From contig NZ_JACHJQ010000004.1 in the NCBI RefSeq assembly GCF_014203735.1, positions 620,001 through 684,000 of the forward strand: DNA of 64,000 nt. The letters are read 5' to 3'. The position numbers and the translations under genes were made by a program. The notes beneath the pieces were generated by a model. That model saw nothing but the letters and a program-made list of their open reading frames with translations. It searched no databases and was not told where the DNA came from. This DNA comes from Actinophytocola algeriensis (lineage in GTDB: Bacteria; Actinomycetota; Actinomycetes; Mycobacteriales; Pseudonocardiaceae). Below, piece by piece: positions 36,587 to 62,648 of the stretch. Position 1 is the first letter of the stretch. Every line of letters begins with the position of its first letter.

Positions 36587-36604
36587 GTTACCGGCCAGTA
36601 CATT
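36587..36604 (+). promoter_or_regulatory. Shared C4-pathway promoter element, copy upstream of the mutase
   Basis: GTTACCGGCCAGTACATT: an imperfect palindrome TACCGGCCAGTA whose last two bases begin the -10 hexamer TACATT. The mutase ATG is 31 nt further on. The same 18-bp layout precedes the genes at 51895 and 61291. Confidence 0.7.
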
Positions 36605-36635
36605 CGAATGGTCCGCGTCAACGGAGGTGGTTCCG

Positions 36636-38666
36636 ATGCCGTACCCAGCCGACGCCGAACGGGACCGGCCGTGGGTGATGCGGACCTACGCCGGCCACTC
36701 CTCGGCGGCCGCGTCCAACCGGCTCTACCGGCGCAACCTGGAGAAGGGGCAGACCGGTCTGTCGGTCGCCTTCGACCTGCCGACGCAGACCGGCTACGAC
36801 CCCGACCACGTGCTCGCGCGCGGCGAGGTCGGCAAGGTCGGAGTGCCGATCAGCCACATCGGCGACATGCGGCAGCTGTTCGACGGCATCCCGCTCGCCG
36901 GGGCCAACACCTCGATGACGATCAACGCGACCGCCATGTGGCTGTTCGCGCTCTACGTGTCCCTCGCGCAGGAGCAGGCCGAGGAGCAGGGCGCCGACTG
37001 GCACGAGGTCGTCGCGAAGCTGGCGGGCACCACCCAGAACGACATCATCAAGGAGTACCTGTCCCGCGGCACGTACGTCTTCCCGCCAGGGCCGAGCCTG
37101 CGCCTGATCACCGACATGGTGGCGTGGACGGTCGCCAACGTGCCGAAGTGGAACCCCACCAACATCTGCAGCTACCACCTGCAGGAGGCGGGCGCGACCC
37201 CGGTCCAGGAGGTCGCCTACGCCATGTGCACGGCCATCGCCGTGCTCGACGCCGTCCGCGACTCCGGTCAGGTGCCGAGGGACAAGATGGGGGACGTCGT
37301 CGCCCGCATCTCCTTCTTCGTCAACGCGGGTGTGCGGTTCGTCGAGGAGATGTGCAAGATGCGCGCGCTCGCCCAGCTGTGGGACGAGATCACGCGTGAC
37401 CGCTACGGCGTGGAGGACCCGAAGCACCGCCGGTTCCGCTACGGCGTGCAGGTCAACTCGCTCGGCCTGACCGAGGCACAGCCCGAGAACAACGTGCAGC
37501 GCATCGTGCTGGAGATGCTCGCGGTCTCCTTGTCCCGCAACGCACGCGCCCGCGCCATCCAGCTGCCCGCGTGGAACGAGGCGCTCGGCCTGCCGACGCC
37601 GTGGGACCAGCAGTGGGCGCTGCGCATGCAGCAGGTGCTCGCCTACGAGACGGATCTCCTGGAGTACGAGGACATCTTCGACGGTTCCCCCGTGATCCAG
37701 TCCAAAGTGGAGGAGATCGTCGCGGGCGCCAAGGCCGAGATCGAACGTGTGCAGGACATGGGCGGCGCGGTCGCGGCCGTCGAGAGCGGGTACATGAAGA
37801 CCCAGCTCGTCGGCTCCCTCGCCGAGCGCCGCCGCCGGATCGAGGCCGGTGAGGAGATCGTCGTCGGCGTCAACCGGTTCGAGAACTCCGAACCGAGCCC
37901 GCTCGAGGGCGAGGGCGCCATCGAGACCGTCAAGCCCGAGGTCGAGCAGGAGGCGGTCGAGGCCCTCAAGCAGTGGCGCGAGAGCCGTAACCAGTCCGAA
38001 GTGGACAAGGCACTCGAGCTGCTGGCGGCCGCCGCCCGCACCGACGACAACCTCATGGAGGCAACGCTCACGTGTGCCAGGGCCGGTGTGACGACGGGGG
38101 AGTGGGCGGGCGCGCTGCGCGAGGTGTTCGGCGAGTACCGCGCGCCGACCGGGGTGTCCGGCGCGTCGTCCGGTGGTGAGGGCGTGAGCGAGCTGGCCGC
38201 GGTGCGGGAGCGCGTGCGGCGGACCGGCGAGGAGCTCGGCGGCAGGCTGCGGATGCTGGTCGGCAAGCCGGGCCTCGACGGGCACTCCAACGGCGCGGAG
38301 CAGATCGCGGTCCGCGCTCGCGACGTCGGGTTCGAGGTCGTCTACCAGGGTATTCGCCTGACCCCGGCGGAGATCGTGGCGGCCGCGGTGCAGGAGGGCG
38401 TGCACGTGGTCGGCCTGTCGATCCTGTCCGGCTCACACCTCGCGGTGGTACCGGACGTCGTCGACGGCCTGCGGGAGGCGGGCGCGGCGGACATCCCGGT
38501 CGTGGTGGGCGGCATCGTGCCACCCGCGGACGCGCGGCAGCTGCGGGAACGCGGCATCGCCAGGGTGTTCACGCCCAAGGACTACGAGCTGACCGAGATC
38601 ATGAACGAGATCGTCAACGTGATCAGGACGGCGAACGGGCTGGACCAGGCGGACCTCGCGCGATGA
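36636..38666 (+). CDS. meaA: Ethylmalonyl-CoA mutase (MeaA)
   Basis: Adenosylcobalamin-dependent rearrangement of (2R)-ethylmalonyl-CoA to methylsuccinyl-CoA. 676 residues from ATG 36636 (ACGGAGG upstream): TIM-barrel catalytic part (about 1-510; LSVAFDLPTQTGYDPDH, NTSMTINATAMWL) and B12-binding domain (about 545-665) with the base-off motif DGHSNG and the later GLSILSGSH and VVGGIVPP motifs. Single-chain design, length and the ATYAGHS-type N-terminus match Streptomyces MeaA rather than the split methylmalonyl-CoA mutase. Ccr is encoded at 61291. Confidence 0.9.
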   Translation: MPYPADAERDRPWVMRTYAGHSSAAASNRLYRRNLEKGQTGLSVAFDLPTQTGYDPDHVLARGEVGKVGVPISHIGDMRQLFDGIPLAGANTSMTINATAMWLFALYVSLAQEQAEEQGADWHEVVAKLAGTTQNDIIKEYLSRGTYVFPPGPSLRLITDMVAWTVANVPKWNPTNICSYHLQEAGATPVQEVAYAMCTAIAVLDAVRDSGQVPRDKMGDVVARISFFVNAGVRFVEEMCKMRALAQLWDEITRDRYGVEDPKHRRFRYGVQVNSLGLTEAQPENNVQRIVLEMLAVSLSRNARARAIQLPAWNEALGLPTPWDQQWALRMQQVLAYETDLLEYEDIFDGSPVIQSKVEEIVAGAKAEIERVQDMGGAVAAVESGYMKTQLVGSLAERRRRIEAGEEIVVGVNRFENSEPSPLEGEGAIETVKPEVEQEAVEALKQWRESRNQSEVDKALELLAAAARTDDNLMEATLTCARAGVTTGEWAGALREVFGEYRAPTGVSGASSGGEGVSELAAVRERVRRTGEELGGRLRMLVGKPGLDGHSNGAEQIAVRARDVGFEVVYQGIRLTPAEIVAAAVQEGVHVVGLSILSGSHLAVVPDVVDGLREAGAADIPVVVGGIVPPADARQLRERGIARVFTPKDYELTEIMNEIVNVIRTANGLDQADLAR

Positions 38667-38702
38667 GGTCCACGTGCGGGTGTGTCGCCTAGGCTGCGAC
38701 AC

Positions 38703-39566
38703 GTGCGTGTCTCGCGGCGTGGCCTGTTCCGGACAGTTTCGCTGTTCGGTGCCGCCGCACTGACGGGGTGCACCACCAGGCTCGGCGGCACGCCGGTCGC
38801 GGCCACCACCCCGCGGTCGGAGCCGCCGTCGGAGGGACCGCGACCGGATGCCGTGACGCTCGGCGTCGCCGCGTACCGGCCCTACGCCTTCGAGGACGAC
38901 TCCGGGGAGCTGACCGGCGAGGTCGTCGAGGTCGTGCGGGCCATCTGCGACAAGCTCGGCACCGCGCTGCGGGTCCAGGTGACGCCGTACGAGGCGCTCC
39001 TGCCGGGCGTCGAGGCCGGTCATCTCGACGTGGTCGGCGGGCTCTCCATCCGGGCGGGCAACTGCACGACGCTGGACTTCACGGTGCCCGACCACGTGTC
39101 ACTGACCGCGCTCGCGGTGCCGCAGGGCAACCCGAAAGGGATCACCACGTTCACCGAGGTGGTGTCGACTGGGGCACGGCTCGCGATCGTCGCCAACTCG
39201 CTCGAGGTGACCACGGCGGACGCGGCCGGCGTCACGGGCGCCCAGACGTACCCGAGCGGCGACGAGATCCTGCGGGCGGTGACCGAGGGCAAGGCCGACT
39301 GTGCCGCGTACGACGACATCACGCTGCGCGACCTGCTGACCAGCACCGATGGGCTGGAGCTGCGGCCGCCGTTCGAACCGGCAGGCGGGTCGCCGCGCTA
39401 CGGGTTCGGGTTCCGCAAGGGCGACGAGCTGCGTGACGACTTCGACGAGGCGCTCGCCGAACTGCACGACAGCGGTGAGTGGCTGCGGATCGCCGCGCCG
39501 TTCGGATTCACTGAGAGTAATATCCCGGACACGGACCGCGTCAGCGACAAGGCCTGCGAACGCTAG
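38703..39566 (+). CDS. Solute-binding lipoprotein of an amino-acid-type ABC importer
   Basis: 287 residues from GTG 38703. Twin-arginine-like SRRGLFRTVSLFGAAALTGC with lipobox LTGC, so probably an exported lipoprotein. Family 3 binding-protein fold: VAAYRPYAFEDDSGELTGEVVEVV, GVEAGHLDVVGGLSIRAGNC, DCAAYDDITLRDLL. It resembles EhuB at 39703 in layout and in the C-terminal FGFTESNIPDTD. No permease of its own; it may share the ehu transporter. TAGGCT lies 7 nt before the GTG (leaderless). Confidence 0.82.
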   Translation: MRVSRRGLFRTVSLFGAAALTGCTTRLGGTPVAATTPRSEPPSEGPRPDAVTLGVAAYRPYAFEDDSGELTGEVVEVVRAICDKLGTALRVQVTPYEALLPGVEAGHLDVVGGLSIRAGNCTTLDFTVPDHVSLTALAVPQGNPKGITTFTEVVSTGARLAIVANSLEVTTADAAGVTGAQTYPSGDEILRAVTEGKADCAAYDDITLRDLLTSTDGLELRPPFEPAGGSPRYGFGFRKGDELRDDFDEALAELHDSGEWLRIAAPFGFTESNIPDTDRVSDKACER

Positions 39567-39619
39567 CCCGCGGCCATGTTTCGGTTGCCTAACAGACTTC
39601 GTTGATCTTATGGGGAACT

Positions 39620-39649
39620 TTGACCAGTCACGACGTCGCCCCCTACGTT
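39620..39649 (+). promoter_or_regulatory. Candidate ehuB promoter
   Basis: TTGACC (39620-39625), 18 nt, TACGTT (39644-39649) is a good housekeeping-type promoter 53 nt upstream of ehuB. The remaining 39567-39619 shows no other signal. Confidence 0.55.
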
Positions 39650-39702
39650 GAATTGCCATCGAGACGCGAGTACGCCGAAGAGACGCATGTGAGGACGGAA
39701 CG

Positions 39703-40623
39703 ATGGCGCGAACGATGGGTACCGGTAACTGGACCCGACGGAACTTCTTCAGGTTCGGCGCGGTTGCCGGCACGGCCGCCATCGGCGGCCCGGCACTGTT
39801 GACGGCCTGCTCAGAGGTACCGCAGGGGGGTTCCGGTGAGGGCGGGACGCTCCAGAGAATCAAGGAAGCCGGGACGATCAAGATCGGCATCGCCGGCGAG
39901 GTCCCCTACGGCTATACCGAGGGTGGCAAGGTCACCGGCGAGGCGCCCGAAGTCGCGAAAGCGGTCTTCAAGGCGATGGGCGTCGACAACGTCGAACCCA
40001 CACAGGTCGAGTTCGGGCAGCTGATCCCGGCGCTGAACGCGGGCGAGTTCGACATGGTGGCGGCCGGCATGGCCGTGCGGCCCGACCGGTGCAAGAACGC
40101 GGCGTTCTCCAGTGTGGACTACGTGACGCCGACCGCCCTGATGGTGCCCAAGGGCAACCCACAGGGCGTCAAGAACTTCGAGGACGTGAAGGCCAAGGGC
40201 CTGGCGATCGCCGTGCTGTCCGGCACGATCGAGCAGGAGGTCGCCAAGGCGGCGGGCATCGCGGCGGACAAGATCCAGCCCTACGACGGGCAGCCGGAGC
40301 TTTTCCAGGCGCTGCAGGACAACCGCGCCTACTGCGGTGCGCTGACCGACATCTCGCTCAAGGAGCTGCTGAAGCAGAACCCCGGCGCGGCGTTCGAGGT
40401 GACCGAGGGCTTCACGCTGGAGCTGAACGGCGAGGAGCAGATCCAGGCGGGCGGTTTCGTGTTCCGCAAGGGTGAGGACGACCTGGTCGACGCGTTCAAC
40501 ACCGAGCTGGACAAGCTGCACGAGTCCGGTGACTGGCTGGCCATCGTCGAGCCGTTCGGGTTCACCGACGCCAACCTGCCTCCCGACGACGTGACCACCG
40601 AGCAGCTCTGCCAGGAATCCTGA
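39703..40623 (+). CDS. ehuB: Ectoine/hydroxyectoine-binding lipoprotein
   Basis: 306 residues. Twin-arginine signal (TRRNFFRFGAVAG) with lipobox LLTAC, then a family 3 binding protein: RIKEAGTIKIGIAGEVPYGYTEGG, ALNAGEFDMVAAGMAVRPDRC, VPKGNPQGVKNFEDVK and a C-terminal FGFTDANLPPDD. The motifs and the B-C-D-A gene order match EhuB of the compatible-solute importer. Ectoine uptake serves osmoprotection or carbon/nitrogen supply. No ectoine degradation genes are seen in the window. Confidence 0.85.
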   Translation: MARTMGTGNWTRRNFFRFGAVAGTAAIGGPALLTACSEVPQGGSGEGGTLQRIKEAGTIKIGIAGEVPYGYTEGGKVTGEAPEVAKAVFKAMGVDNVEPTQVEFGQLIPALNAGEFDMVAAGMAVRPDRCKNAAFSSVDYVTPTALMVPKGNPQGVKNFEDVKAKGLAIAVLSGTIEQEVAKAAGIAADKIQPYDGQPELFQALQDNRAYCGALTDISLKELLKQNPGAAFEVTEGFTLELNGEEQIQAGGFVFRKGEDDLVDAFNTELDKLHESGDWLAIVEPFGFTDANLPPDDVTTEQLCQES

Positions 40624-40636
40624 GCAGCGAGAAGTC

Positions 40637-41380
40637 GTGTTCGACAACCTGTCCCTGTTCGTCAGCACGATCTCCCGGGGATTGCTGCTGACCGTGGAGG
40701 CGACCGTCGGCGGCATCCTCATCGCGACCGTCCTGTCCTTCGTGTTCGGGCTGGCGATGCTGTCGAGGTCGCGGACGGTGCGCCTGGTCGCGCGGATCTA
40801 CGTGGAGATCTGGCGCGGCACGTCAGAAGTGGTCCAGCTGCTGTGGATCTACTTCGTGCTGCCGGTGCTGATCGGCTACCGCATCGTGCCGCTGGTCGCG
40901 GGCATCGTCGTGCTGGGCCTGAACTTCGGCGCGTACGGTGCGGAGATCGTGCGCGGTGCCGTGCAGTCGGTGCCCAAGGCGCAGTACGAGGGCGCGATCG
41001 CGCTCAACCTCACGCCCGCGCAACGGATGCGGCGGGTGATCCTGCCGCAGGCGCTCGTGGAGATGGTGCCGCCGTTCAACAACCTGTTCATCCAGCTGCT
41101 CAAGGGCAGCGCACTGCTGACGATGATCACCGTGCACGAGATGACCTACCAGGCGCGTGAGGTCCTGATCGACCGGAACATCGACCAGGCCTGGCTGATC
41201 TGGACGCTGGTGCTGCTGTTCTACCTCGTGCTCGCGATCCTGATCACCATCGGCATGCGCCTGCTCGAACGGTGGGCGGCGCGGCTCGTCGGCAGGAAAC
41301 CGGACGAGCGGAGCATCTTCAGCAGGCGGAAGAAGCCGGTGCTCGCCGAGACCGTGTCCGCGGGTGGTGGTCCGCTGTGA
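40637..41380 (+). CDS. ehuC: Ectoine/hydroxyectoine ABC transporter permease
   Basis: 247 residues, HisM/GlnP-type permease with about five membrane helices and the EAA loop YEGAIALNLTPAQRMRRVILPQA. GTG start 14 nt after ehuB; its stop overlaps ehuD (GTGA). The hydrophilic C-terminus (RKPDERSIFSRRKKP) is probably cytoplasmic. Confidence 0.88.
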   Translation: MFDNLSLFVSTISRGLLLTVEATVGGILIATVLSFVFGLAMLSRSRTVRLVARIYVEIWRGTSEVVQLLWIYFVLPVLIGYRIVPLVAGIVVLGLNFGAYGAEIVRGAVQSVPKAQYEGAIALNLTPAQRMRRVILPQALVEMVPPFNNLFIQLLKGSALLTMITVHEMTYQAREVLIDRNIDQAWLIWTLVLLFYLVLAILITIGMRLLERWAARLVGRKPDERSIFSRRKKPVLAETVSAGGGPL

Positions 41381-42036
41381 TCTGGGACTGGGACTACTTC
41401 TGGGAGGCACTGCCGATCGTCGTCGGCGACGGTCTGTGGATCACGTTCCAGGTGACGTTGCTCGGCTCGATCGTCGCCTACCTGCTCGGCATGGTGCTCG
41501 CGCTGCTGCGGCGGTCGCGGATCCGGGTCGTGAGCACGGTGACGTGGGCGTTCATCGAGTTCATCCGCAGCACGCCGCTGCTGGTGCAGCTCTTCTTCCT
41601 GTTCTTCGTGTTCCCGGACTTCGGCCTCAAGTTCGGGCCCGTGACGACCGGCGTGATCGCGCTCGGCCTGCACTACTCGACCTACGCCGCCGAGGTCTAC
41701 CGCGCGGGTATCGAGGCGGTGCCGGTCGGGCAGTGGGAGGCGGCCACCGCGCTCAGCCTGCCGAGGGCGCGCACGTGGCGGGCGGTGATCCTGCCGCAGG
41801 CGATCCCGAGAGTGCTGCCCGCACTCGGCAACTACACCATCTCCATGGTGAAGGAGACCCCGCTGCTGCTGACGATCGGTGTCACGGACATCGCGGGCGC
41901 CGCCTTCCAGGAGGCCTCGTCGACGTACCGGTACGTCGAGCCGATCACGATCGCGGGCCTGCTGTTCCTCGTGCTGAGCTACTCGGCATCCCTACTCGTT
42001 CGATGGTTGGAGCGTCGTGTCGGAACCCTCCACTGA
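41377..42036 (+). CDS. ehuD: Ectoine/hydroxyectoine ABC transporter permease
   Basis: 219 residues from GTG 41377, which overlaps the ehuC stop. His/Glu/Gln-type permease with the EAA loop WEAATALSLPRARTWRAVILPQA and STPLLVQLFFLFF. Heterodimer partner of EhuC. The last 20 nt overlap ehuA. Confidence 0.88.
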   Translation: MIWDWDYFWEALPIVVGDGLWITFQVTLLGSIVAYLLGMVLALLRRSRIRVVSTVTWAFIEFIRSTPLLVQLFFLFFVFPDFGLKFGPVTTGVIALGLHYSTYAAEVYRAGIEAVPVGQWEAATALSLPRARTWRAVILPQAIPRVLPALGNYTISMVKETPLLLTIGVTDIAGAAFQEASSTYRYVEPITIAGLLFLVLSYSASLLVRWLERRVGTLH

Positions 42037-42808
42037 GGACTACATGATCCGGTTCGAGGACGTGGCGAAGCGGTTCGGCGACCACGTCGTGCTCGACGGG
42101 CTGAACTTCACGGTCGCGCCGGGCGAGTTCGTCACCCTGATCGGGCCGAGCGGCTCGGGCAAGACGACGATCCTGCGCCTGCTCATGACCCTGGAACAGG
42201 TCACGAGCGGCACGATCCACGTCGACGGCGAGTGCCTGACCCACGTGCGGCGTGGCGACCGGCTGGTGCCCGCCGACGAGAAGCACCAGCAGCAGGTGCG
42301 CAAGCGCATCGGCATGGTGTTCCAGCAGTTCAACCTGTTCCCGAACATGAAGGTGCTGCAGAACCTGACCGAGGCGCCGATCAGGTCGCTCGGCCTGTCG
42401 CGGGCCGAGGCGGAGGCGCGGGCACACGAGCTGCTGGACCTGGTGGGCCTGTCGGACAAGGTGCACGCCCACCCGACGCAGCTGTCCGGCGGGCAGCAGC
42501 AGCGGGTGGCGATCGCACGGGCGCTGGCGATGCGGCCGGATGTGCTGTTGCTGGACGAGGTCACGTCGGCGCTGGACCCGGAGCTGGTGGCGGGTGTGCT
42601 GCGCCTGCTGAAGGACATCGCCGAGACGACGGAGATCACGTTCCTGTGCGTGACCCACGAGATGGGGTTCGCGCGGGACGTGTCCGACCGGGTGCTGATG
42701 TTCGACCACGGGCACATCGTCGAGGACGCGTCGCCGGACAAGCTGTTCAGCGAGCCCGACCACGAGCGGACCCGCGAGTTCCTGAGCGCGGTGCTGGAAC
42801 GGGGTTAG
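42017..42808 (+). CDS. ehuA: Ectoine/hydroxyectoine ABC transporter ATP-binding protein
   Basis: 263 residues. Walker A GPSGSGKTT (about 44-52), Q-loop FQQFNLFPN, signature LSGGQQQRVAIARALA, Walker B VLLLDEVTSALDPE and switch histidine in CVTHEMGFA. The GTG at 42017 overlaps ehuD; ATG 42044 is an alternative. Energises uptake through EhuCD. Confidence 0.9.
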   Translation: MSEPSTEDYMIRFEDVAKRFGDHVVLDGLNFTVAPGEFVTLIGPSGSGKTTILRLLMTLEQVTSGTIHVDGECLTHVRRGDRLVPADEKHQQQVRKRIGMVFQQFNLFPNMKVLQNLTEAPIRSLGLSRAEAEARAHELLDLVGLSDKVHAHPTQLSGGQQQRVAIARALAMRPDVLLLDEVTSALDPELVAGVLRLLKDIAETTEITFLCVTHEMGFARDVSDRVLMFDHGHIVEDASPDKLFSEPDHERTREFLSAVLERG

Positions 42809-42817
42809 GCTCGGCGC

Positions 42818-51836: not shown

Positions 51837-51854
51837 GTTACTGGCAGGTAGTGT
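51837..51854 (+). promoter_or_regulatory. Shared C4-pathway promoter element, copy upstream of the double dehydrogenase
   Basis: GTTACTGGCAGGTAGTGT, with -10 hexamer TAGTGT as its last six bases, 40 nt before the GTG at 51895. It differs from the ccr copy at four positions, only one of them outside the -10 hexamer. Confidence 0.65.
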
Positions 51855-51894: not shown

Positions 51895-53670
51895 GTGGCA
51901 CGGGAGATCCAGTGCGTCGGAGTCGTCGGTCTCGGGACCATGGGCGCGGGCATCGCCGAGGTGGTGGCCAGGACGGGCCGCCTGGTGGTCGGTGTCGAGG
52001 TGGACGACGCGGCCATCGCCAGGGCACGTGAGCACCTCGAGTACTCCACCGAGCGGGCCAGGGCGGGCGGCAAGCTCGACGCGGCGGAACGCGACGCGCT
52101 GCTGGCGAGGATCACCTACACGACGAGCCTGAAGGACCTGGGCGACGTGGACCTGGTGGTCGAGGCGATCCCGGAGAGCCTGGAGCTGAAGGCGCAGGTG
52201 TTCACCGAGCTGGAGCAGGTCTGCCGGCCGGACGTGATCCTCGCGTCGAACACGTCGTCGTTGTCGGTCACCGAGATCGGTGTCCACACAGGACGGCCGG
52301 GCAAGGTCGTCGGGCTGCACTTCTTCAACCCGGCGCCCGTGCTGAAGCTCGTCGAGATCGTGCGCACGGTGGTCACCGAGCCGGACGTGATCGCCGACGT
52401 GGAGGCGTTCGCGCGTGATCTGGGCAAGGAGCCGGTGGTCATCGGCGACCGGGCGGGGTTCATCGCGAACGCGCTGCTGTTCGGGTACCTCAACCACGCG
52501 GTGTCGATGTACGAGTCGCGCTACGCCACGCGCGAGGACCTGGACGCGGCGATGCGGTTCGGCTGCGGATATCCCATGGGACCGTTGGCGCTGCTGGACC
52601 TCATCGGCCTGGACACGGCGTACGAGATCCTCGAGACGATGTACCGCCAGTCCCGCAACCGCCTGCACGCCCCGGCGCCGATCATGAAGCAGATGATCAC
52701 GGCGGGGCTGCTGGGCAGGAAGTCGGGCCGCGGCTTCTACACCTACGACGCCATCGACTCGCCGACCGTGGTGTCCGATGTGGACACCCCGGCGACCGCC
52801 GAGGACGCGGCGGCGACCCGCGACGTGCGGCGCGTCGGGGTGGTCGGCACCGGCACGATGGCCACGGGCATCGCGGAAGTGTTCGCCAAGAAGGGGTTCG
52901 ACCTCGTGCTGCGGGCCCGCACGGCGGAGAAGGCCGAGCTCGCGGTGGCCGCGGTGGGCCGGTCGCTGGACCGGCAGGTGAAGAAGGGGCGGCTGTCGGC
53001 AGAGGGCCGTGCCGAGGTGCTGGCGCGCATCACCGGGGTGACGTCGTTCGACGATCTGGCGGACTGCGACCTGGTGGTCGAGGCGGTGGCGGAGGAGCTG
53101 GCCGTCAAGCAGACGGTGTTCGAGGCGCTGGACAAGGCGGTGAAGCCGGGTGCGATCCTCGCGACCACGACGTCGTCGCTGCCGGTGATCGAATGCGCGG
53201 CGGCGACGTCCCGTCCGGCCGATGTCGTTGGCTTGCACTTCTTCAACCCGGCCCCGGTGATGAAGCTGGTCGAGGTGGTCGCGACGATCTCGACGGCCGA
53301 CGACGTGGTGGCGACCGCTGACCTCGTGTGCCGCACGGTCGGCAAGCACCCGGTGCACTGCGCCGACCGGGCGGGGTTCATCGTCAACGCGCTGCTGTTC
53401 CCGTACCTGAACGACGCGGTGAAGATGCTGGAGGCCCACTACGCGGAAGCCGACGCCATCGACACGGCGATGAAGGTCGGCTGCGGGTTGCCGATGGGGC
53501 CGTTCGAGCTGCTCGACGTGGTGGGGCTGGACGTGTCGCTGGCGATCGAGCGCACGCTGTACTACGAGTTCCGGGATGCCGGGTTCGCGCCGGCGCCGCT
53601 GCTGGAACACCTGGTGACGGCCGGCCGCCTCGGCCGCAAAACCGGCAAGGGCTTCCGCGACTACGGCTGA
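51895..53670 (+). CDS. Fused tandem 3-hydroxyacyl-CoA (3-hydroxybutyryl-CoA) dehydrogenase
   Basis: 591 residues from GTG 51895 (GGAGGTG upstream). Two full-length dehydrogenase units follow each other: residues 1-285 (NAD motif GLGTMGAGIAE, HFFNPAPVLKLVEIV, ANALLFGYLN) and about 305-591 (GTGTMATGIAE, HFFNPAPVMKLVEVV, VNALLFPYLND). Each has the SNTSSL/TTTSSL segment, the HFFNP histidine and a dimerisation domain. The last glycine of the second NAD motif is displaced by A-T. Reaction: 3-hydroxybutyryl-CoA/acetoacetyl-CoA interconversion. Linked by promoter element to meaA and ccr. Confidence 0.92.
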   Translation: MAREIQCVGVVGLGTMGAGIAEVVARTGRLVVGVEVDDAAIARAREHLEYSTERARAGGKLDAAERDALLARITYTTSLKDLGDVDLVVEAIPESLELKAQVFTELEQVCRPDVILASNTSSLSVTEIGVHTGRPGKVVGLHFFNPAPVLKLVEIVRTVVTEPDVIADVEAFARDLGKEPVVIGDRAGFIANALLFGYLNHAVSMYESRYATREDLDAAMRFGCGYPMGPLALLDLIGLDTAYEILETMYRQSRNRLHAPAPIMKQMITAGLLGRKSGRGFYTYDAIDSPTVVSDVDTPATAEDAAATRDVRRVGVVGTGTMATGIAEVFAKKGFDLVLRARTAEKAELAVAAVGRSLDRQVKKGRLSAEGRAEVLARITGVTSFDDLADCDLVVEAVAEELAVKQTVFEALDKAVKPGAILATTTSSLPVIECAAATSRPADVVGLHFFNPAPVMKLVEVVATISTADDVVATADLVCRTVGKHPVHCADRAGFIVNALLFPYLNDAVKMLEAHYAEADAIDTAMKVGCGLPMGPFELLDVVGLDVSLAIERTLYYEFRDAGFAPAPLLEHLVTAGRLGRKTGKGFRDYG

Positions 53671-54541: not shown

Positions 54542-54808
54542 ATGTCGCACCCACTCGGCGCCCTCGCGGACAACATGGCCGCCTACGCCATCTACGCCAC
54601 CGCCCAGACCGAGATGCGCCGCGCCTACACCCTGATCGACGCGGGCGACCTCGACGCCGCCGCCAACGAGATCGAGTCCGCCGCGCACGCCGCCGAGGTG
54701 CTGGCGAAGGCGTCGACGGAACTGGACCGCATCGCCCACTGGCGCCGCGTCGCCGACGCCCGGCAACGTTTCGTCGACCAGCTGAAGGCCGAGAAGGCCG
54801 CCGCCTGA
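54542..54808 (+). CDS. Small helical protein of unknown function
   Basis: 88 residues, almost all helix-forming, TPR-like pattern (YTLIDAGDLDAAANEIESAAHAAEVLAKASTELDRIAHWRRVADA). ATG 54542 with CAGGAG upstream. No signal or membrane segment. A large hairpin follows the gene. Confidence 0.65.
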   Translation: MSHPLGALADNMAAYAIYATAQTEMRRAYTLIDAGDLDAAANEIESAAHAAEVLAKASTELDRIAHWRRVADARQRFVDQLKAEKAAA

Positions 54809-54820
54809 TGCCCGGCCCGT

Positions 54821-54884
54821 GCGAGTCACGCGCTCGGACATCCCGAGTCCTTCCGGACTCGGTGTGTGCGAACGCGTGACTCGC
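54821..54884. terminator. Large hairpin between convergent genes
   Basis: Arms 54821-54850 and 54855-54884: 12 perfect outer pairs (GCGAGTCACGCG), a partly paired middle of 10, and 8 perfect inner pairs (CCGAGTCC) closed by a TTCC loop. About 26 of 30 positions pair. It should act as a bidirectional terminator; the elaborate shape also looks like a mobile hairpin repeat. Confidence 0.75.
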
Positions 54885-54900
54885 CGTGCGCGCGTCGGGG

Positions 54901-55950: not shown

Positions 55951-55958
55951 GGCCCGCA

Positions 55959-56516
55959 TCATTCATCCGGGTGCCGGAAGAAGCAACACAATGTGCCCTG
56001 GAACCAAGCCCTGCGCACCTCGGTGAACCCGAGCTTGATCGCAACCCGTTGCGCGGGCACGTTCAGCGTCGGCGTGATGATCATCATCGGCAGGTCGGGG
56101 AAGGTGCGCCGCCCCCAGCCCAGCGCGGCGGCGACCATCTCGGGTGCGAAACCGCGGCCCCAGTGGCGGGAGAAGAGCCGGTAGAAGACGTTGAGGTAGG
56201 GGCCGTCGTCGGAGTACGAGAGCTGCAGCCCGCCGAACCCGATCAGCTCACCGGTGCGGGCCAGCTCGATCGCCCAGTACCCGAAGCCGAACTCGGCCCA
56301 GTGGTCGAGCCAGGAGGTGAACATCTGCCGCGACTCGTCCGGCGAACTGACCCCCTCCGGCCGGAACCGGACCATGTCGGGATCGGCGTGGATGGTGATC
56401 ATCGCGTCGACGTCGTCCGGCGTCAGCCTGCGCAGCACCAGCCGCGCGGTGGTGAACCGCTCCGGTCGGTCGTCCTCCGGGACGTGTGTCACCCCACCGA
56501 TGCTAACCATGCTCAC
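55959..56516 (-). CDS. GNAT-family N-acetyltransferase
   Basis: 185 residues, RimJ/RimL-like: TTARLVLRRLTPDDVDAM start, GYWAIELARTGELIGFGGL, YRLFSRHWGRGFAPEMVAAAL (acetyl-CoA loop) and NVPAQRVAIKLGFTEV. Substrate unknown. Its stop is 8 nt upstream of the aminotransferase, so the two may be co-transcribed. Confidence 0.85.
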   Translation of the reverse strand: MSMVSIGGVTHVPEDDRPERFTTARLVLRRLTPDDVDAMITIHADPDMVRFRPEGVSSPDESRQMFTSWLDHWAEFGFGYWAIELARTGELIGFGGLQLSYSDDGPYLNVFYRLFSRHWGRGFAPEMVAAALGWGRRTFPDLPMMIITPTLNVPAQRVAIKLGFTEVRRAWFQGTLCCFFRHPDE

Positions 56517-56535
56517 GGTGCCCCTGAGGCGGCCG

Positions 56536-56562
56536 ATGCCCCGAAAGACGCTTTCAGGGCAT
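56536..56562. repeat. GAAAGACGCTTTC palindromic repeat, copy 2
   Basis: ATGCCCCGAAAG (56536-56547), ACG, CTTTCAGGGCAT (56551-56562): 11 of 12 positions pair. The inner 13 bases are identical to copy 1 at 10344. It lies in the short gap between the hydrolase and GNAT genes and may end transcription. Confidence 0.7.
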
Positions 56563-56574
56563 TCGACGTCCTGA

Positions 56575-57309
56575 CTACTCCAGCCAGCGGGCCACCGCGC
56601 CCGTGAACTGCTCCGGGACCTCCAGCGGCGGCAGGTGCCCGGCGCCTGCCAGCACCACGACCTCCGCCTTCGGCATCAGGGCCGCCAGTGCGTCCGCTTC
56701 CTCGGCCGGGATCAGCGTGTCCTGCTCGCCGCGCACGATCAGCGTTGGCACGTCGCTGTTTCGCAGTATTTCCGACGAGTCCGGGCGGGCGGCCATCGCG
56801 CGCTGGGCCCACGCGATCGCGGCACCGTCCTGTTCGGACACCAGGGTGCGCACCGCCGCCACCACCTCCGGGCGGCGGTCCGTCGTTTCGCTGCCCAGCA
56901 GCGTGGGGAGGACCGCGTCCGGGACGAAGCCCGGGCCCTCCTCCTCGATGCGGGACGCCATCGCGTGGCGGTTGGCGCGGCCTGCGTCGGCGTCCGCGGT
57001 CGCCCGGGTCGACACCAGCAGCAGGCCGGCCACCAGCTCCGGCGCTTCGCGGAGCACGGCCATCGCCACGTAGCCGCCCATCGAGCAGCCACCCAGGACC
57101 ACCCGGCGGCCGCCGAGCCGATCGATGACATCCGTCGCCACCGTGGCCAGGTCCGGTTCGTCGTCGCCCAGCGAGGCGTCGCCGAAACCCCGCTGGTCCG
57201 GGGTGATCAGCTCGATGTGCTCGGCGATCCCGGGTCTCACCTCGTCCCACATCCGGTGGTCCAGCGGGAACGCGTGGAGCAGCACGAGCGGCGTCTCGGG
57301 GAAGCGCAT
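56575..57309 (-). CDS. Alpha/beta-hydrolase fold protein
   Basis: 244 residues from ATG 57309. LLHAFPLDHRMW oxyanion region, nucleophile elbow GGCSMGGYVAM (Ser about 94), acid in VRGEQDTLIP and catalytic histidine in GAGHLPPLE. Small lidded hydrolase; substrate unknown. Confidence 0.87.
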   Translation of the reverse strand: MRFPETPLVLLHAFPLDHRMWDEVRPGIAEHIELITPDQRGFGDASLGDDEPDLATVATDVIDRLGGRRVVLGGCSMGGYVAMAVLREAPELVAGLLLVSTRATADADAGRANRHAMASRIEEEGPGFVPDAVLPTLLGSETTDRRPEVVAAVRTLVSEQDGAAIAWAQRAMAARPDSSEILRNSDVPTLIVRGEQDTLIPAEEADALAALMPKAEVVVLAGAGHLPPLEVPEQFTGAVARWLE

Positions 57310-57326
57310 GACTCCATCCAAACAGC

Positions 57327-58448
57327 TCAGCGCCTGCGCCGCCGCCCTTTCCTGCGCGGTGTGGCCGCCTCGTCGTCGGGTGCCAGTGGGAGGTGGGGTG
57401 GTTCTTCGTCGTCGTCCAGCAGGCCCAGCACCTCCGCCGCTATGCGTTGTGCGGACTCGGCCAGGGACGTGCCATCCTCGCCCGCGCGGCGCAGGGCCGA
57501 CGAGCGGAGGCGGGTGTAGCCGCGGACGGACACCGGGCGGCGGGAGCGGAGCGCGTACTCCGGGTTCTCGTTCAGCGCCTCGGCCAGCTCCAGGTCCACC
57601 AGGACCGTGCTCGGCCTGGCGACCGAGGTCAGTCGGCTCGCGATGTTGACCACCGAGCCGTACACGTCGCCGAAGCGGCTGAGCACCCGGCCGTAGGCGA
57701 GGCCCGCCCGCAGCGACGGCACCCCGTCCTCCTTGTCGGCGCGGTCGAGGAGGCTCAGCGCGATCTCGGCGCCGTCGGCGGGTGAGTCGGCGACGAACAG
57801 CACCTCGTCGCCGAGCATCTTCACGATGCGGCCGTGGTTCTCGGCGACGATGTCGGCGGCGAGCGCCTCGAAGCGGTCCACGACCGCGACCAGCTCGGCC
57901 TCGTTGGAGCGGCGGGTGAGGGTGGTGAAGCCGACCATGTCGGCGAACCCGACGACCTGGCGGTGCTCGTCGAGGTTCTCGCCGGGCGACCCGAGCATGC
58001 GGACCGAGTTGGCGGCGAGGTGCCTGCGCCACACGTAGTCCTGCAGCGCCTCGAGCTCGGGCGTGAGGTGTTCGACGAGCCGGGCGAGCTGGCGGTCGTC
58101 GGCGCCGATCTCCGGGTTCGCGGCGAGGACGTCGCGCAGCATGTGGACCTGGGACTCGGCGAGGCGCGACATGTGCTGGCCGATCATGCGCGCGGTCGCC
58201 GTCGCGATCGACGGGTCGACGATGCCGCCGCGGATCAGCTCGCTCGTGATGCGCAGCGCGCGGACGTCGCCGTCGGTGAAGACCGCGGCGTCGTCGTCCT
58301 GCGTGGCGAAGCCGAGGGCACGCCAGAGCGCCCTGGAGCGTTCCGGTGGCACACCGGTGATCTCGGCGACCTCAGTACGGGTGTACTGGCGGCTGCCGCC
58401 CAGGAGGATGCGCTCGAGGCGCTGCTGGAGCGCCTCGTCGTCGGTCAC
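57327..58448 (-). CDS. Class III adenylate/guanylate cyclase with N-terminal regulatory domain
   Basis: 373 residues, soluble. N-terminal helical regulatory domain (about 1-150), similar in layout to the pH-sensing Rv1264 type of mycobacteria, then a class III catalytic domain (about 165-325): metal Asp in VGFADMVGFTTL, KMLGDEVLFV (purine-specifying Lys and second metal Asp), YGSVVNIASRL (transition-state Asn/Arg). Should make cAMP. A basic C-terminal tail (RRKGRRRRR) is unusual. Confidence 0.87.
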   Translation of the reverse strand: MTDDEALQQRLERILLGGSRQYTRTEVAEITGVPPERSRALWRALGFATQDDDAAVFTDGDVRALRITSELIRGGIVDPSIATATARMIGQHMSRLAESQVHMLRDVLAANPEIGADDRQLARLVEHLTPELEALQDYVWRRHLAANSVRMLGSPGENLDEHRQVVGFADMVGFTTLTRRSNEAELVAVVDRFEALAADIVAENHGRIVKMLGDEVLFVADSPADGAEIALSLLDRADKEDGVPSLRAGLAYGRVLSRFGDVYGSVVNIASRLTSVARPSTVLVDLELAEALNENPEYALRSRRPVSVRGYTRLRSSALRRAGEDGTSLAESAQRIAAEVLGLLDDDEEPPHLPLAPDDEAATPRRKGRRRRR

Positions 58449-58476
58449 GACGTCTCGCTCCGCGGGCTCCGCCGAG

Positions 58477-58929
58477 TCACGTCGTGTGGACGATGAGCAC
58501 GTCCACGCCGGACTTGCGTGCCACCTCCGACGGGACCGAGCCCAGGAGCCGCCCCGCCAGGGAGTTGAGGCCGCGGTTGCCGACCACCAGCAGGTCCGCC
58601 GCGCGCTCCTTGACGACCTTGGTGAGCATCGGGACCGGTTCCCCGTCGACCACCACGGTGTCGATCTTCACCGCGCCCTGCTTCTTCGCCCGCTCGGAGG
58701 CCGCACGTACCGACTCCTCGGCAGGCGACGAGCCGACGACCTGGTAGGCGACATCCGAACCCAGTTCGTCCTGGGCGCGGGTGACGTCCTCCTGGCGCGC
58801 GGGGTGGTAGGCGCAGGCGATGACGAGGGTGGCGTCCGCGTCGGCCGCGATGCGTGCGGCCCGGTCCACCGCGAGGTAGGACGAGTCGGAGCCGTCCGTG
58901 CCGACGACCACGGTCTGGTAAGCCGTCAT
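58477..58929 (-). CDS. Universal stress protein (UspA family)
   Basis: 150 residues from ATG 58929 (GGGAGGA upstream). One Usp domain: VVVGTDGSDSSYLAVDRAARIA, and the ATP-binding GNRGLNSLAGRLLGSVPSEV motif (G-2x-G-9x-G). The 31-bp tandem repeats begin 12 nt upstream of the start codon, so they lie in the 5' region or promoter of this gene. Confidence 0.9.
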   Translation of the reverse strand: MTAYQTVVVGTDGSDSSYLAVDRAARIAADADATLVIACAYHPARQEDVTRAQDELGSDVAYQVVGSSPAEESVRAASERAKKQGAVKIDTVVVDGEPVPMLTKVVKERAADLLVVGNRGLNSLAGRLLGSVPSEVARKSGVDVLIVHTT

Positions 58930-58940
58930 GTGTCCTCCCT

Positions 58941-59033
58941 GCTGAGCGGAGCTTGTGGAGCGAACATCTGTGCTGAGCGGAGCTTGTGGAGCGAACATCT
59001 GTGCTGAGCGGAGCTTGTGGAGCGAACATCTCT
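58941..59033 (-). repeat. Three tandem 31-bp GAGCG repeats upstream of the Usp gene
   Basis: Copies at 58941-58971, 58972-59002 and 59003-59033. Each reads GCTGAGCGGAGCTTGTGGAG then CGAACATCTGT; the last ends CTCT instead of CTGT. The unit is one of the dispersed family at 3851, 15371 and 47435, here amplified and inverted relative to the Usp gene. Confidence 0.9.
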
Positions 59034-59138
59034 GTACCTACTCGTGCGTAAACCTACCGTGGTGGGTGGTTTCTTCGCACGGGGTGTGAGGGCTGATTTC
59101 CGCCGGATCGGCTCCCGTGCGTGCTCCAGGCTTGGGTC

Positions 59139-59552
59139 ATGTACGTGATTCGGCCGTTGACGGTTCGTGGTGACGGGGTGGCGGTGGTGGCGTCCGGCGG
59201 GGAGCCGCTGCGGTGTTGTCTGCGGGACGCGTCGGCGGGGGAGGAGTTGGTCTTGTTCAACTACTCGCCGCCGCTGCCCGCGCCGTCGCCCTATGAGGAG
59301 CGTGGGGCGGTGTTCGCGCACGCTTCCTCTTGTGCGGGGCCGGTTTCCGCCGGATATCCGGCGGAGTGGGTGGGGCGGCCGCAGGTGTTGCGGGCCTATG
59401 ACGCGCGGGGCTGGATCCATCCGGCCACCCGGGTGCACGACGGGTCGGATCCGGAGGGGGCGCTCGCGGCGGTGTTCGCCGATCCGGAGGTGGTGGAGGT
59501 GCACAGCCGGAACGTGGCTTACGGGTGCTTCATGTTCGCGATCACGCGGTGA
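59139..59552 (+). CDS. DUF1203 family protein
   Basis: 137 residues from ATG 59139 (GTG 59121 possible). GGEPLRCCLRDASAGEELVLFNYSPP and ERGAVFAHASSCAGP are typical of DUF1203. Cytosolic; unknown function. The upstream gap (59034-59138) contains no further element I recognise. Confidence 0.78.
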   Translation: MYVIRPLTVRGDGVAVVASGGEPLRCCLRDASAGEELVLFNYSPPLPAPSPYEERGAVFAHASSCAGPVSAGYPAEWVGRPQVLRAYDARGWIHPATRVHDGSDPEGALAAVFADPEVVEVHSRNVAYGCFMFAITR

Positions 59553-59642
59553 CGGGGTTGGCCTCCGGCCCCCGGTTCCAGCGTCTCATGGGGGACTGAC
59601 GGTGACGGTGGGTTGTCCACAGATGGGGTGTGGCGGCCAATC

Positions 59643-59665
59643 TTGTCGGTGATCGTCGTTACGCT
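59643..59665 (+). promoter_or_regulatory. RecA-NDp/PafBC-type DNA-damage promoter, orphan copy 2
   Basis: TTGTCGGTG (59643-59651), 8 nt, TACGCT (59660-59665): exact PafBC consensus. The following GGATTTCGGGGG is identical to copy 1 at 12015. It faces the 3' end of the deaminase gene, which is on the other strand; no sense gene follows. TTGTCCACA (59613-59621), a DnaA-box-like word, is upstream. Confidence 0.75.
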
Positions 59666-59725
59666 GGATTTCGGGGGGCCGACGGCCGCGGTTGATCCTG
59701 GGCGGGGTTGTTGTGTGGCTTGGCT

Positions 59726-60160
59726 TTACTCGCCTATGTCCTCGTACCAGAGGGCCGGGTTGGCTTCGATGAAGTCCGTCATCAGGCCTACGCAGGTCTG
59801 GTCGTCGACGATCTCGATCGTGGTGCCGTGCTCGGCCAGCCAGTCGTGGCCGCCGTGGAAGGTGGTCGCCTCGCCGATGATGACCCGCGGGATGTTGAAC
59901 TGGCGCACCAGGCCGCTGCAGTACCAGCACGGGGACAGGGTGGTCACCATGATGGTGTCCCGGTAGTGCCTTCTGCGGCCCGCGTTGCGGAAGGCGGCCG
60001 TCTCCGCGTGCATGGAGGGGTCGTCGTCCTGGACTCGGCGGTTGTGGCCGCTGCCCAGCAGCTCGCCGTCCGTGGTGAAGAGGGCGGCGCCGATCGGGAT
60101 GCCGCCCTCTGCCAAGCCTTGTCTGGCCTCCGCTATCGCGACGGCCAGCAGCTGGGTCAC
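59726..60160 (-). CDS. Zinc cytosine deaminase, yeast Fcy1 type
   Basis: 144 residues from GTG 60160, overlapping the previous gene's stop (GTGA). Deaminase motifs HAETAAF (zinc His and proton-shuttle Glu) and SPCWYC (zinc cysteines). GGIPIGAALF, RGHN-like GSGHNRRVQ and the C-terminal WYEDIGE closely follow yeast cytosine deaminase, not TadA or the CodA amidohydrolase. Converts cytosine to uracil for pyrimidine salvage. Its coupling to a coiled-coil gene is unexplained. Confidence 0.85.
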   Translation of the reverse strand: MTQLLAVAIAEARQGLAEGGIPIGAALFTTDGELLGSGHNRRVQDDDPSMHAETAAFRNAGRRRHYRDTIMVTTLSPCWYCSGLVRQFNIPRVIIGEATTFHGGHDWLAEHGTTIEIVDDQTCVGLMTDFIEANPALWYEDIGE

Positions 60161-61254
60161 CTCGCGATGCGCTTCGTCTTCGCGGCCGAGACCTCCGGCG
60201 GAATGGGGGGTGCGTCCGTGGCGCCGGACGTCTCCCACTTCTCCTTCGGCGGGCCGGGCATCGGGTTCCGGTCGCGGGGCGCCGGGGTCGGCTTGGCGCC
60301 CGCGTCCGCCGCGTCGGCCAGTTCGTCGGGCAGGGGCTCGAAGGCCGGGACCGCGTTCTCCAGGTAAGCGTGGGCGTCCACGACCAGCTCGCGGGCCGAC
60401 GACAGTTGTTCTGCGACCTTCGCGCGGAGTTTGCGCAGGGCGGCCACGCGCTGGGCGGCGTGGTTGATCCTGCGGTTCGACTCCTCCGTCGCCTCGCGGA
60501 CGCGGCGGTTGGCCTCGTCTGTCGCCTCCTGCAGGCGGGCGGTCGCCTCGGTCATGGCCTCGTGGCGGCGGCGGTTGGCTTCCTCGGTGGCCTCGCGGAC
60601 GCGGCGTTCGGCCTCCGACTTCGACGTCGCCTCCTGCTCGGCCAGCGCGCGCATCGACTCGGTGCGGCGGGAGGCCATCGCGATCTCGAAGTCCTCCTCC
60701 ACCTGCGTGCGGCGGGCCTGGGCGGCGATGTCGGTGGCCTCGGCCTCGGACTTGGCCTGGGAGACGATCTCGTCGGCGGACTTGCGGGCCTTCTCCAGGA
60801 CACCGCGGTGCTCGTTCTCCATCGCGATGCGGCGCTCGTCCAGCTCCTTGAGCTGGACCTCGTACTTGCCGCGCAGCTCGTCGGCCTCGGCGTTGGCCTT
60901 CGCGCGGACGTGGTCGGCCTCGGCGTTGGCCTTGGCGCGGATCTCCTCGCATTCCTCCTGCGTGAGGCGGAGCATGCGCTGCAGGCGCTCAGAAAGGCCC
61001 TCGAGGGTCGTCGGCGGTTGAGCGAGGCGCTCGACCTGTTTGTTCAGGTCGTCGATCGTGGTTCGGGCCACCTCGAGCTGGGACGTGAGCTCAGCCGCCT
61101 GCGCCGCCGCCGCGTTGCGATCGGCAGCGAGGATCTTCAGCTGGCTGTCCAACTGCTCGAGGTGTTCCTCGACCTGCATTCGACTGTAGCCGCGCTTGGT
61201 GATGTCGAAGCCGGCTCCCAGCGGTACAAGATCACGTTCTTCGCCCAGCGCCAT
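60157..61254 (-). CDS. DivIVA-domain coiled-coil protein (FilP/Scy-like)
   Basis: 365 residues. Short N-terminal DivIVA-like motif FDITKRGYSRMQVEEHLEQLD (about 16-36), then almost continuous coiled coil to about residue 295, including hendecad-like repeats EATEEANRR/EATDEANRR/EATEESNRR, and a Pro-rich C-terminal tail (315-365). Proteins of this build organise polar growth or filaments in actinomycetes. Exact role not determined. Start ATG 61254. Confidence 0.8.
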   Translation of the reverse strand: MALGEERDLVPLGAGFDITKRGYSRMQVEEHLEQLDSQLKILAADRNAAAAQAAELTSQLEVARTTIDDLNKQVERLAQPPTTLEGLSERLQRMLRLTQEECEEIRAKANAEADHVRAKANAEADELRGKYEVQLKELDERRIAMENEHRGVLEKARKSADEIVSQAKSEAEATDIAAQARRTQVEEDFEIAMASRRTESMRALAEQEATSKSEAERRVREATEEANRRRHEAMTEATARLQEATDEANRRVREATEESNRRINHAAQRVAALRKLRAKVAEQLSSARELVVDAHAYLENAVPAFEPLPDELADAADAGAKPTPAPRDRNPMPGPPKEKWETSGATDAPPIPPEVSAAKTKRIAR

Positions 61255-61290
61255 GGCACCACGCTACCTTGCTCGGCGGAGTAGGACGGG

Positions 61291-62622
61291 TCAGACGCCG
61301 CGGAACCGGTTGATGGCCGAAAGATGTTGCTCGCGCAACTCCGGATTCCGTACTCCCAGGCCCTCTTCCGGTGCGAGGCACAGCACGCCGACCTTGCCCT
61401 GGTGCGTGTTCCTGTGCACGTCGTACGCCGCCTGGCCGGTCTCCTCCATCGGGTACACACCGGACAGTGTGGGGTGGATCTTTCCCTTGGCGACCAACCT
61501 GTTCGCCTCCCACGCCTCGCGGTAGTTCGCGAAGTGCGAGCCGATGATGTTCTTCAGGTTCATCCAGAGGTACCGGTTGTCGTACTGGTGCATGAATCCG
61601 CTCGTCGACGCACAGGTCACGATCGTCCCGCCCTTGCGGGCCACGTACACGCTCGCGCCGAACGTCTCCTTGCCGGGGTGCTCGAACACGATGTCCGGGT
61701 CGTCACCGCCGGTGAGCTCACGGATCCTTGCGCCGAAACGCTTCCACTCCTTCGGGTCCTGGTTGTTCTCGTCCTTCCAGAACCGGTAACCCTCCGCGTT
61801 GCGGTCGATGATCAGCTCGGCGCCCATCTTCCGGCAGATGTCCGCCTTCTCCTGGCTCGACACAACGCACACCGGCGTCGCGCCGCCGTTCAGCGCGAAC
61901 TGCGTCGCGTACGAGCCGAGGCCGCCGGAGGCGCCCCAGATCAGCACGGTGTCGCCCTGCTTCATGCCCGCACCGTTGCGGGAGACCAGCTGCCGGTACG
62001 CGGTCGAGTTCACCAGGCCGGGGCAGGCGGCCTCCTCCCACGACAGGTGCGCGGGCTTGGGCATCAGCTGGTTCGACTTGACCAGCGCCAGCTCGGCGAG
62101 CCCGCCGAAGTTCGTCTCGAAGCCCCAGATCCGCTGCTCGGGGTCGAGCATCGTGTCGTTGTGGCCGTCCGGGTGCTCCAGCTCGACGTTGAGGCAGTGC
62201 GCGACGACCTCGTCGCCGGGCTGCCACGCGTTCACGCCGGGGCCGGTGCGCAGCACGACGCCCGCGAGGTCGGAGCCGACCACGTGGTAGGGCTGGTCGT
62301 GGCGCTTGGCCAGGGGAGAGGTCTTGCCGTAGCGGCGGAGGAAGCCGAAGGTGTCCATCGGCTCGAAGATCGAGGTCCACACCGTGTTGTAGTTGATGGC
62401 GCTCGCCATGACGGCGACCAGCGCCTCGCCGGGGCCCAGCTCCGGGGTGGGCACCTCGTCGACGTGCAGCGACTCGCGCGGGTCCTTGTCGGCGTGCGCG
62501 CGGTCGGCGAACATCTCGACCTCGTCGGCGCGCACGGTCACGCCGCGATACGACTCAGGTACCGGCAGCGTGCCGAGAGAGGCCAGATCGCCTGCGAGGA
62601 TGGCGTCGAGAATCTTCTGCAT
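61291..62622 (-). CDS. ccr: Crotonyl-CoA carboxylase/reductase
   Basis: NADPH-dependent reductive carboxylation of crotonyl-CoA to (2S)-ethylmalonyl-CoA, key step of the ethylmalonyl-CoA pathway and source of polyketide extender units. 443-residue MDR protein. CO2-pocket residues defined for the Kitasatospora enzyme are present, shifted by two: N79 (INYNTVW), F168-E169 (WGFETNFGG), H363 (GSHFANY). Nucleotide motif IWGASGGLGSYATQ (about 228-241). The promoter element overlaps the -10 only 8 nt before the ATG, so the mRNA is probably leaderless. Confidence 0.95.
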   Translation of the reverse strand: MQKILDAILAGDLASLGTLPVPESYRGVTVRADEVEMFADRAHADKDPRESLHVDEVPTPELGPGEALVAVMASAINYNTVWTSIFEPMDTFGFLRRYGKTSPLAKRHDQPYHVVGSDLAGVVLRTGPGVNAWQPGDEVVAHCLNVELEHPDGHNDTMLDPEQRIWGFETNFGGLAELALVKSNQLMPKPAHLSWEEAACPGLVNSTAYRQLVSRNGAGMKQGDTVLIWGASGGLGSYATQFALNGGATPVCVVSSQEKADICRKMGAELIIDRNAEGYRFWKDENNQDPKEWKRFGARIRELTGGDDPDIVFEHPGKETFGASVYVARKGGTIVTCASTSGFMHQYDNRYLWMNLKNIIGSHFANYREAWEANRLVAKGKIHPTLSGVYPMEETGQAAYDVHRNTHQGKVGVLCLAPEEGLGVRNPELREQHLSAINRFRGV

Positions 62623-62630
62623 GCCCGCCG

Positions 62631-62648
62631 ACGCTACCGGCCAGTAAC
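62631..62648 (-). promoter_or_regulatory. Shared C4-pathway promoter element, copy upstream of ccr
   Basis: On the minus strand GTTACTGGCCGGTAGCGT, ending in the -10 hexamer TAGCGT, 8 nt before the ccr ATG. The core TACTGGCCGGTA is a near-palindrome (5 of 6 pairs). Confidence 0.7.

Follow-up and report, generated by a model that had tools for sequence, protein, structure and literature searches.

A TAC-N6-GTA box over predicted -10 hexamers of ethylmalonyl-CoA pathway genes in Actinophytocola algeriensis points to a probable FasR-type acyl-CoA regulon

Background

In Mycobacterium tuberculosis, the TetR-type regulator FasR (Rv3208) binds three inverted repeats before fas, from which it is released by acyl-CoA of at least C16, and is described as an activator of fas-acpS. 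FasR of Corynebacterium glutamicum is described as a repressor. The oligonucleotide in the M. tuberculosis FasR crystal includes TAC-CCGTAC-GTA and AACTCGCCAGTA, no base contacts being resolved in the passages of the structure paper (PMC7382501). A TAC-N6-GTA palindrome with three sites before fas has also been tied to palmitate-induced genes, in a report whose available passages name no regulator (PMC3388012); taken together, the two reports suggest that this palindrome is the site present in the FasR oligonucleotide. In this study, we describe a box with the same core before three widely separated genes of the ethylmalonyl-CoA (EMC) pathway, meaA, hbd and ccr, in a 64,000-nucleotide stretch of the soil actinomycete Actinophytocola algeriensis (contig NZ_JACHJQ010000004.1, positions 620,001 to 684,000), referred to below as the window.

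The reading that we favour, at a probability of roughly 0.57 on sequence evidence, is that a FasR-type repressor, released by acyl-CoA, would act over the -10 region of these genes and couple the EMC pathway to beta-oxidation within a wider regulon. The likeness to M. tuberculosis FasR at fas-acpS lies in the TAC-N6-GTA core, in the lipid genes and in a closely related TetR protein whose recognition helix is near-identical; the mycobacterial system differs in being an activator of FAS-I genes with three repeats, whereas the predicted sites found here are single and overlie the -10 of EMC genes. C. glutamicum FasR with its operator fasO is alike in being a repressor, one of whose sites overlaps the accD1 reading frame, but its targets are accBC, accD1, fasIA and fasIB, and the likeness is one of description rather than of fasO sequence.

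Through the EMC pathway many actinomycetes can grow on acetate and lipids, and it also supplies polyketide synthesis. In Escherichia coli, acyl-CoA sensing is linked to acetyl-CoA assimilation via the glyoxylate shunt through FadR and IclR, and FadR reportedly activates iclR, as the title of a cited study has it. If the favoured reading is true, the pathways that make and assimilate acetyl-CoA would lie in one regulon, an analogue of the FadR-IclR-glyoxylate link made of different parts: fatty-acid use would be tied to acetyl-CoA assimilation in both, but the E. coli system has another protein family and another pathway, in place of the TetR-type protein and the EMC pathway proposed here.

TetR-family control of ccr itself is described for CcrR of Methylobacterium extorquens, a mutant of which had half the Ccr activity; CcrR differs in being an activator, by the title of its paper, from an alphaproteobacterium, and is likened by description, not by sequence. 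Among actinomycetes, control of ccr has been reported for Crp in Streptomyces (PMC7074812), and acetate induction has been noted. Crp of Streptomyces cinnamonensis upregulates ccr jointly with genes of fatty-acid degradation, but it is a global and positive regulator, the available passages (PMC7074812) describe no TAC-N6-GTA box, and Streptomyces ccr loci lack the box (see below). MadR (Rv0472c) is an acyl-CoA-responsive mycobacterial TetR; it was set aside as a binder because its published consensus, TCTGTGN7GT, differs. No paper naming the box, or linking a FasR-type regulator to EMC genes, was found among the best 8-20 of up to 2,287 matches in our literature searches; the search made with the letters of the box yielded the FasR structure paper and three papers unrelated by title.

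Methods

The main panel comprised 31 genomes (G000-G030), six of the window's genus, 13 of the same family and 12 of the same order. Around the starts of the ccr, meaA, hbd and two TetR genes located there, as many as 410 bases were scored with a palindromic matrix derived from 22 ccr boxes, the threshold being set at the 99% level of shuffled upstream regions. A second matrix drew solely on 16 ccr-upstream boxes from 16 genera other than that of the window. A separate set of 80 named ccr loci shared at least two non-Streptomyces genomes with the panel, and its Streptomyces loci served as a control on real DNA.

A strict form of the box (TTACYSRYSRGTAA) and its reversed pattern were counted in the panel, in nine other named genomes and in 14 Streptomyces genomes. 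For gene assignment, 60 regions holding 62 strict sites were fetched; 13 further strict sites, already known as those of ccr (7), hbd (1), FasR-type genes (4) and TetR2 (1), were left out of the fetch. Domain families were taken from family scans, and the names fadE5, fabG4, fadA2 and etfD/FadF, as well as the neighbour order around the SCP2-domain gene, are presumptive. Comparisons with published systems draw on passages of PMC7382501, PMC4482099, PMC6460773, PMC3388012, PMC8872791, PMC10370305, PMC4207312, PMC4606968, PMC7652896, PMC5541348 and PMC7074812.

Results and discussion

The box before meaA, hbd and ccr

A sequence-only reading of the window had announced an identical 18-bp promoter element before three genes. 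Its sequences were found letter for letter at 36587-36604 on the forward strand (GTTACCGGCCAGTACATT), 51837-51854 on the forward strand (GTTACTGGCAGGTAGTGT) and 62648-62631 on the reverse strand (GTTACTGGCCGGTAGCGT); the shared element is real, but only 12 of the 18 positions agree, and the word identical overstated the match. The consensus of the element is the palindrome TTACYSRYSRGTAR with the core TAC-N6-GTA, and the TAC and GTA arms stand six bases apart at all three sites. Clusters of two or three spaced sites, as in mycobacterial fas, were not found at ccr, meaA or hbd of the window, each of which has a single site.

Family scans upheld the gene names given in that reading. The first box precedes a meaA-type CoA mutase gene of the methylmalonyl-CoA mutase family (36636-38666, forward strand, with GGAGG at 36624-36628), the second the double 3-hydroxyacyl-CoA dehydrogenase gene hbd (51895-53670, forward strand, GTG start) and the third the crotonyl-CoA carboxylase/reductase gene ccr (61291-62622, reverse strand; 613.5 bits on TIGR01751, cutoff 378.55). 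The gene-side hexamers are TACATT (36599-36604) for meaA, TAGTGT (51849-51854) for hbd and TAGCGT (62636-62631) for ccr, the last lying 8 nt upstream of the ATG.

The 13-mer core TTACYGGCMRGTA occurs exactly at four places in the 9.73-Mb genome, three of them in the window, a count that is circular on its own, the pattern having been derived from the three sites. With up to three mismatches allowed, the window holds seven matches, two of which are the same sites on the other strand, whereas shuffling gave a mean of 2.63 (sd 1.72). By the second matrix, a less circular test, the three sites rank 1, 2 and 5 in the window, with scores of 18.5, 16.9 and 14.4, while 60 shuffled windows gave a mean best score of 10.8, a highest best score of 16.0 and a highest third-best score of 11.1. 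The earlier statement that the window has no fourth copy holds for the full pattern, which occurs without mismatch only at the three sites; a fuller motif adds 59038-59051 and 31271-31284, ranked 3 and 4 by the second matrix.

Conservation and register with the -10 hexamer

In the panel, where counts are not probabilities because related genomes are not independent, the ccr box scored above threshold in 22/23 genomes (the training set itself) and in 16/17 outside the window's genus. The corresponding figures were 18/22 and 12/16 for meaA, and 14/21 and 8/15 for hbd, one hbd match lacking its N-terminus and thus having a misplaced start. Among the 80 named ccr loci, the box was above threshold at 33 of the 37 from non-Streptomyces genomes (Pseudonocardiaceae, Kribbella, Mumia and others), against 1/43 in Streptomyces, where the one site lies 350 bases away.

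In 49/54 EMC boxes a T completes the gene-side TANNNT, compared with 22/54 for the far side (Fisher p 4.7e-8, not corrected for relatedness). For ccr the gene-side hexamer is present in 21/22 boxes and the far-side one in 4 (outside the genus, 15/16 versus 2), and for meaA in 18/18 and 10 (outside the genus, 12/12 versus 7). The claim that the box is locked in register with a -10 hexamer therefore stands for ccr and meaA; for hbd it is weak, holding within the window's own genus but in only 4/8 boxes outside it.

A TetR-type operator at these positions would overlie the -10 hexamer of ccr, meaA and hbd, and a box placed over the -10 favours a repressor over an activator, activator sites over the -10 being unusual. 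We regard it as improbable that the element is an activator site or a promoter class of the extended -10 type. The near-invariant register at ccr and meaA would suit such a class, and M. tuberculosis FasR, as described, does activate fas; yet the palindrome is symmetric, it is doubled 24-26 bases apart at some fadE5-like genes, and the gene-side TANNNT is absent in 10/15 boxes at the promoter of the regulator gene TetR2 (see below) and in 5/54 EMC boxes.

A wider regulon of fatty-acid and acyl-CoA genes

The three genes had been proposed to define a small regulon. This was not borne out, as strict boxes in relatives stand mostly upstream of fatty-acid and acyl-CoA genes. The strict box has 88 sites over G000-G030, compared with 5 for the reversed pattern; the nine other named genomes gave 27 versus 1, and the 14 Streptomyces genomes 29 versus 1. 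Of the 62 fetched strict sites, 39 could be assigned, at positions between 42 bases into the gene and 209 bases upstream of its aligned start. They comprise fadE5-like genes (16 sites, 14 genes), FadF/EtfD-like genes (9), thiolase (6), etfB (3), aceE (3) and ccr (2), the references for etfB, aceE and thiolase having been taken from the fetched regions, so that these three labels are self-matches. Family scans agree with those names (an ETF domain; TIGR00759 aceE, 1062.8 bits, cutoff 859.9; TIGR01930 thiolase, 399.9 bits, cutoff 240.55). Some fadE5-like genes carry doubled boxes 24-26 bases apart.

In the window's own genome, box-like sites were also seen at acyl-CoA dehydrogenase genes (one of them fadE5-like, with a pair of boxes spaced by 24 bases), at genes for a FadF/EtfD-like iron-sulfur protein and an enoyl-CoA hydratase-family protein, at fabG4-like and fadA2-like genes, and upstream of two TetR genes; these regions, and those of the HpcH/HpaI pair and the MlaE-type operons described below, were picked by eye from match lists and are candidates from which no rate follows. 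The genome scan that had been suggested for targets of the mcl type yielded a box before an HpcH/HpaI gene pair, above threshold at 6/11 orthologous loci; the pair resembles malyl-CoA lyase but falls below curated cutoffs.

The same kind of box thus occurs at EMC genes and at the fat-burning genes of relatives, and this sharing of a DNA switch suggests one fat-sensing regulator for both. The sequence itself shows the box and how widely it is kept, the -10 register at ccr and meaA, and which genes lie beside it; the identity of the binder, its repressing action and its ligand are what we infer. In the proposed mechanism, a FasR-type dimer would occupy the box when long-chain acyl-CoA is lacking and would block RNA polymerase at the -10. 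When cells grow on lipids, acyl-CoA would bind the dimer and the DNA would be released, and beta-oxidation and the acetyl-CoA-consuming EMC pathway would be induced together. The genes ccr, meaA and hbd would then form one target class of an actinobacterial acyl-CoA regulon, beside fadE5-like, etfD-like (FadF), etfB, thiolase and regulator genes. The box is a candidate operator for such a beta-oxidation regulon, including its fadE5-like and etfD-like genes, and with a box and a candidate protein both named the question becomes directly testable.

Candidate binders

The most likely regulator is a FasR-type TetR protein whose gene lies outside the window, at G000:C9:340091-340780. Its best solved relative is M. 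tuberculosis FasR (6o6p, 206 bits), and its recognition helix (MDEIAERAGVSKPVLYQHF) is near-identical to that of the mycobacterial protein (MDEIADRAGVSKPVLYQHF); the stretch SKPVLYQHF is identical to 6o6p and is the same in 52/52 orthologs among those listed. A perfect box (TTACTCGCCGGTAA) lies between its gene and a divergent hydrolase gene. Boxes above threshold were present at the promoter of the FasR-type gene itself in 22/29 genomes of the panel (16/23 outside the window's genus), and 20/22 of these have TANNNT on the gene side and none on the far side. The gene is found in 29/31 and 29/29 genomes, two genomes being in both sets, and co-occurrence with so nearly universal a gene does not discriminate. 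The one well-assembled genome that lacks it, G028, has one strict box versus one reversed, counts too small for an argument.

A second FasR-like TetR protein, TetR2 (G000:C3:344623-345279), scores 111.3 bits on the curated FasR model NF053731; its gene is divergently oriented to an SCP2-domain gene, and fabG4-like and fadA2-like genes lie 3-4.5 kb away. As the main alternative, it could bind the box, either by itself or competing with the FasR-type protein, although we think this unlikely. Boxes stand at its own promoter (counts below), another lies between the nearby fabG4-like and fadA2-like genes, and the second-best PDB relative of TetR2 is FasR. However, 7 ccr-bearing genomes gave no TetR2 ortholog at 52% identity or more, and the ccr box is retained in 6 of them; three genomes in which TetR2 had no match at E 1e-25 (G019, G020 and G021) still have strict boxes before fadE5-like genes, the FasR-type gene being present. 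Its recognition helix differs (SKPMIYAYL), and the boxes at its own promoter lack the -10 register, with TANNNT on the gene side in 5/15 and on the far side in 3.

The sequence-only reading had put forward the TetR-family gene next to ccr (63273-63851, forward strand) as the candidate regulator, and this is disfavoured. Of the 15 genomes carrying it, 10 have it beside ccr, yet it fits poorly as a reader of the box. That it is a dedicated EMC regulator in the manner of CcrR is a very remote prospect, for all its closeness to ccr and the ccr-activating TetR on record for M. extorquens. The gene was not found (E 1e-15) in 10/23 ccr-bearing genomes, and 9 of those 10 have retained the ccr box; two genomes that gave no ccr match (G017, G018) do carry the gene. 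In the window, the 600 bases upstream of it held no box, and the same scan in relatives reached, at 2/12 loci, a site on the ccr side. Its recognition helix, VPKGLVHYYF, is unlike that of FasR, and the same kind of box also precedes many fatty-acid genes.

Several results weigh against the FasR-type repressor proposed here. The M. tuberculosis protein is described as an activator; the protein at C9 scores 281.9 bits on NF053731, a mycobacterial model, and misses its cutoff of 330; 7/29 FasR-type genes have no box above threshold at their own promoter; boxes also stand at the promoter of TetR2, above threshold in 15/18 genomes (10/12 outside the window's genus). The hbd register is weak, with TANNNT on the gene side in 10/14 boxes versus 8/14 on the far side, and in 4/8 versus 6/8 outside the genus. 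No gene was assigned to 23 of the 62 fetched strict sites. Enrichment in the own genome is also weak: with up to one mismatch the real and reversed patterns gave 56 versus 25 and 106 versus 73 matches, TTACYSNNSRGTAR gave 8 versus 5, and the strict box one site versus one. Many matches to loose patterns there fall inside coding frames, and matches in a single genome were therefore not taken as proof.

Orthologs with the same helix are moreover present in 14/14 Streptomyces genomes searched, while Streptomyces ccr loci lack the box; presence of the protein hence does not predict the target set. We consider evenly balanced the broader proposal that in Pseudonocardiaceae, Kribbella and Mumia a FasR-type sensor would repress the EMC pathway and beta-oxidation as one regulon through one -10 box, and that Streptomyces would keep protein and box but exclude ccr.

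Further observations

In the window's genus the distance from the end of the ccr box to the start codon is 11 bases in all six genomes, compared with 10-105 bases in 16 others. The ccr -10 hexamer lies 8 nt upstream of the ATG in 6/6 genomes of the genus (L058-L063; spacer 62623-62630 in the window), and the distance is longer in 15/16 other box-bearing genomes. Such a short distance across the genus suggests that the ccr mRNA may be leaderless there, the leader probably having been lost in this one genus. A ccr-like and probably leaderless layout was also seen at L041 (2516-2529), where a box lies about 10 bases upstream of an enoyl-CoA hydratase-family gene.

An additional intergenic box candidate, CTACTCGTGCGTAA, is located at 59038-59051. 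It is of low confidence, has the TANNNT register on neither side, and precedes a universal-stress-protein gene, which is followed by a nucleotide-cyclase-domain gene. Upstream of the same universal-stress-protein gene, a 31-bp unit (CTGAGCGGAGCTTGTGGAGCGAACATCTGTG) is present in three tandem copies at 58942-59034. The match at 31271-31284 from the window scan and another at 32183 were discarded, both lying inside a coding frame.

Strict boxes stand upstream of aceE, encoding pyruvate dehydrogenase E1, in three genomes of the window's genus (L377, L380, L381). Box-like sites were found in the window's genome upstream of two operons with MlaE-type permease genes (L047 2479, L049 2308), which we take to be mce-like lipid import operons. 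A second ccr-like gene (L082, G000:C10:146548-147831), 55% identical, has a weaker box, TTACCGACGAGTGA, 33 bases upstream.

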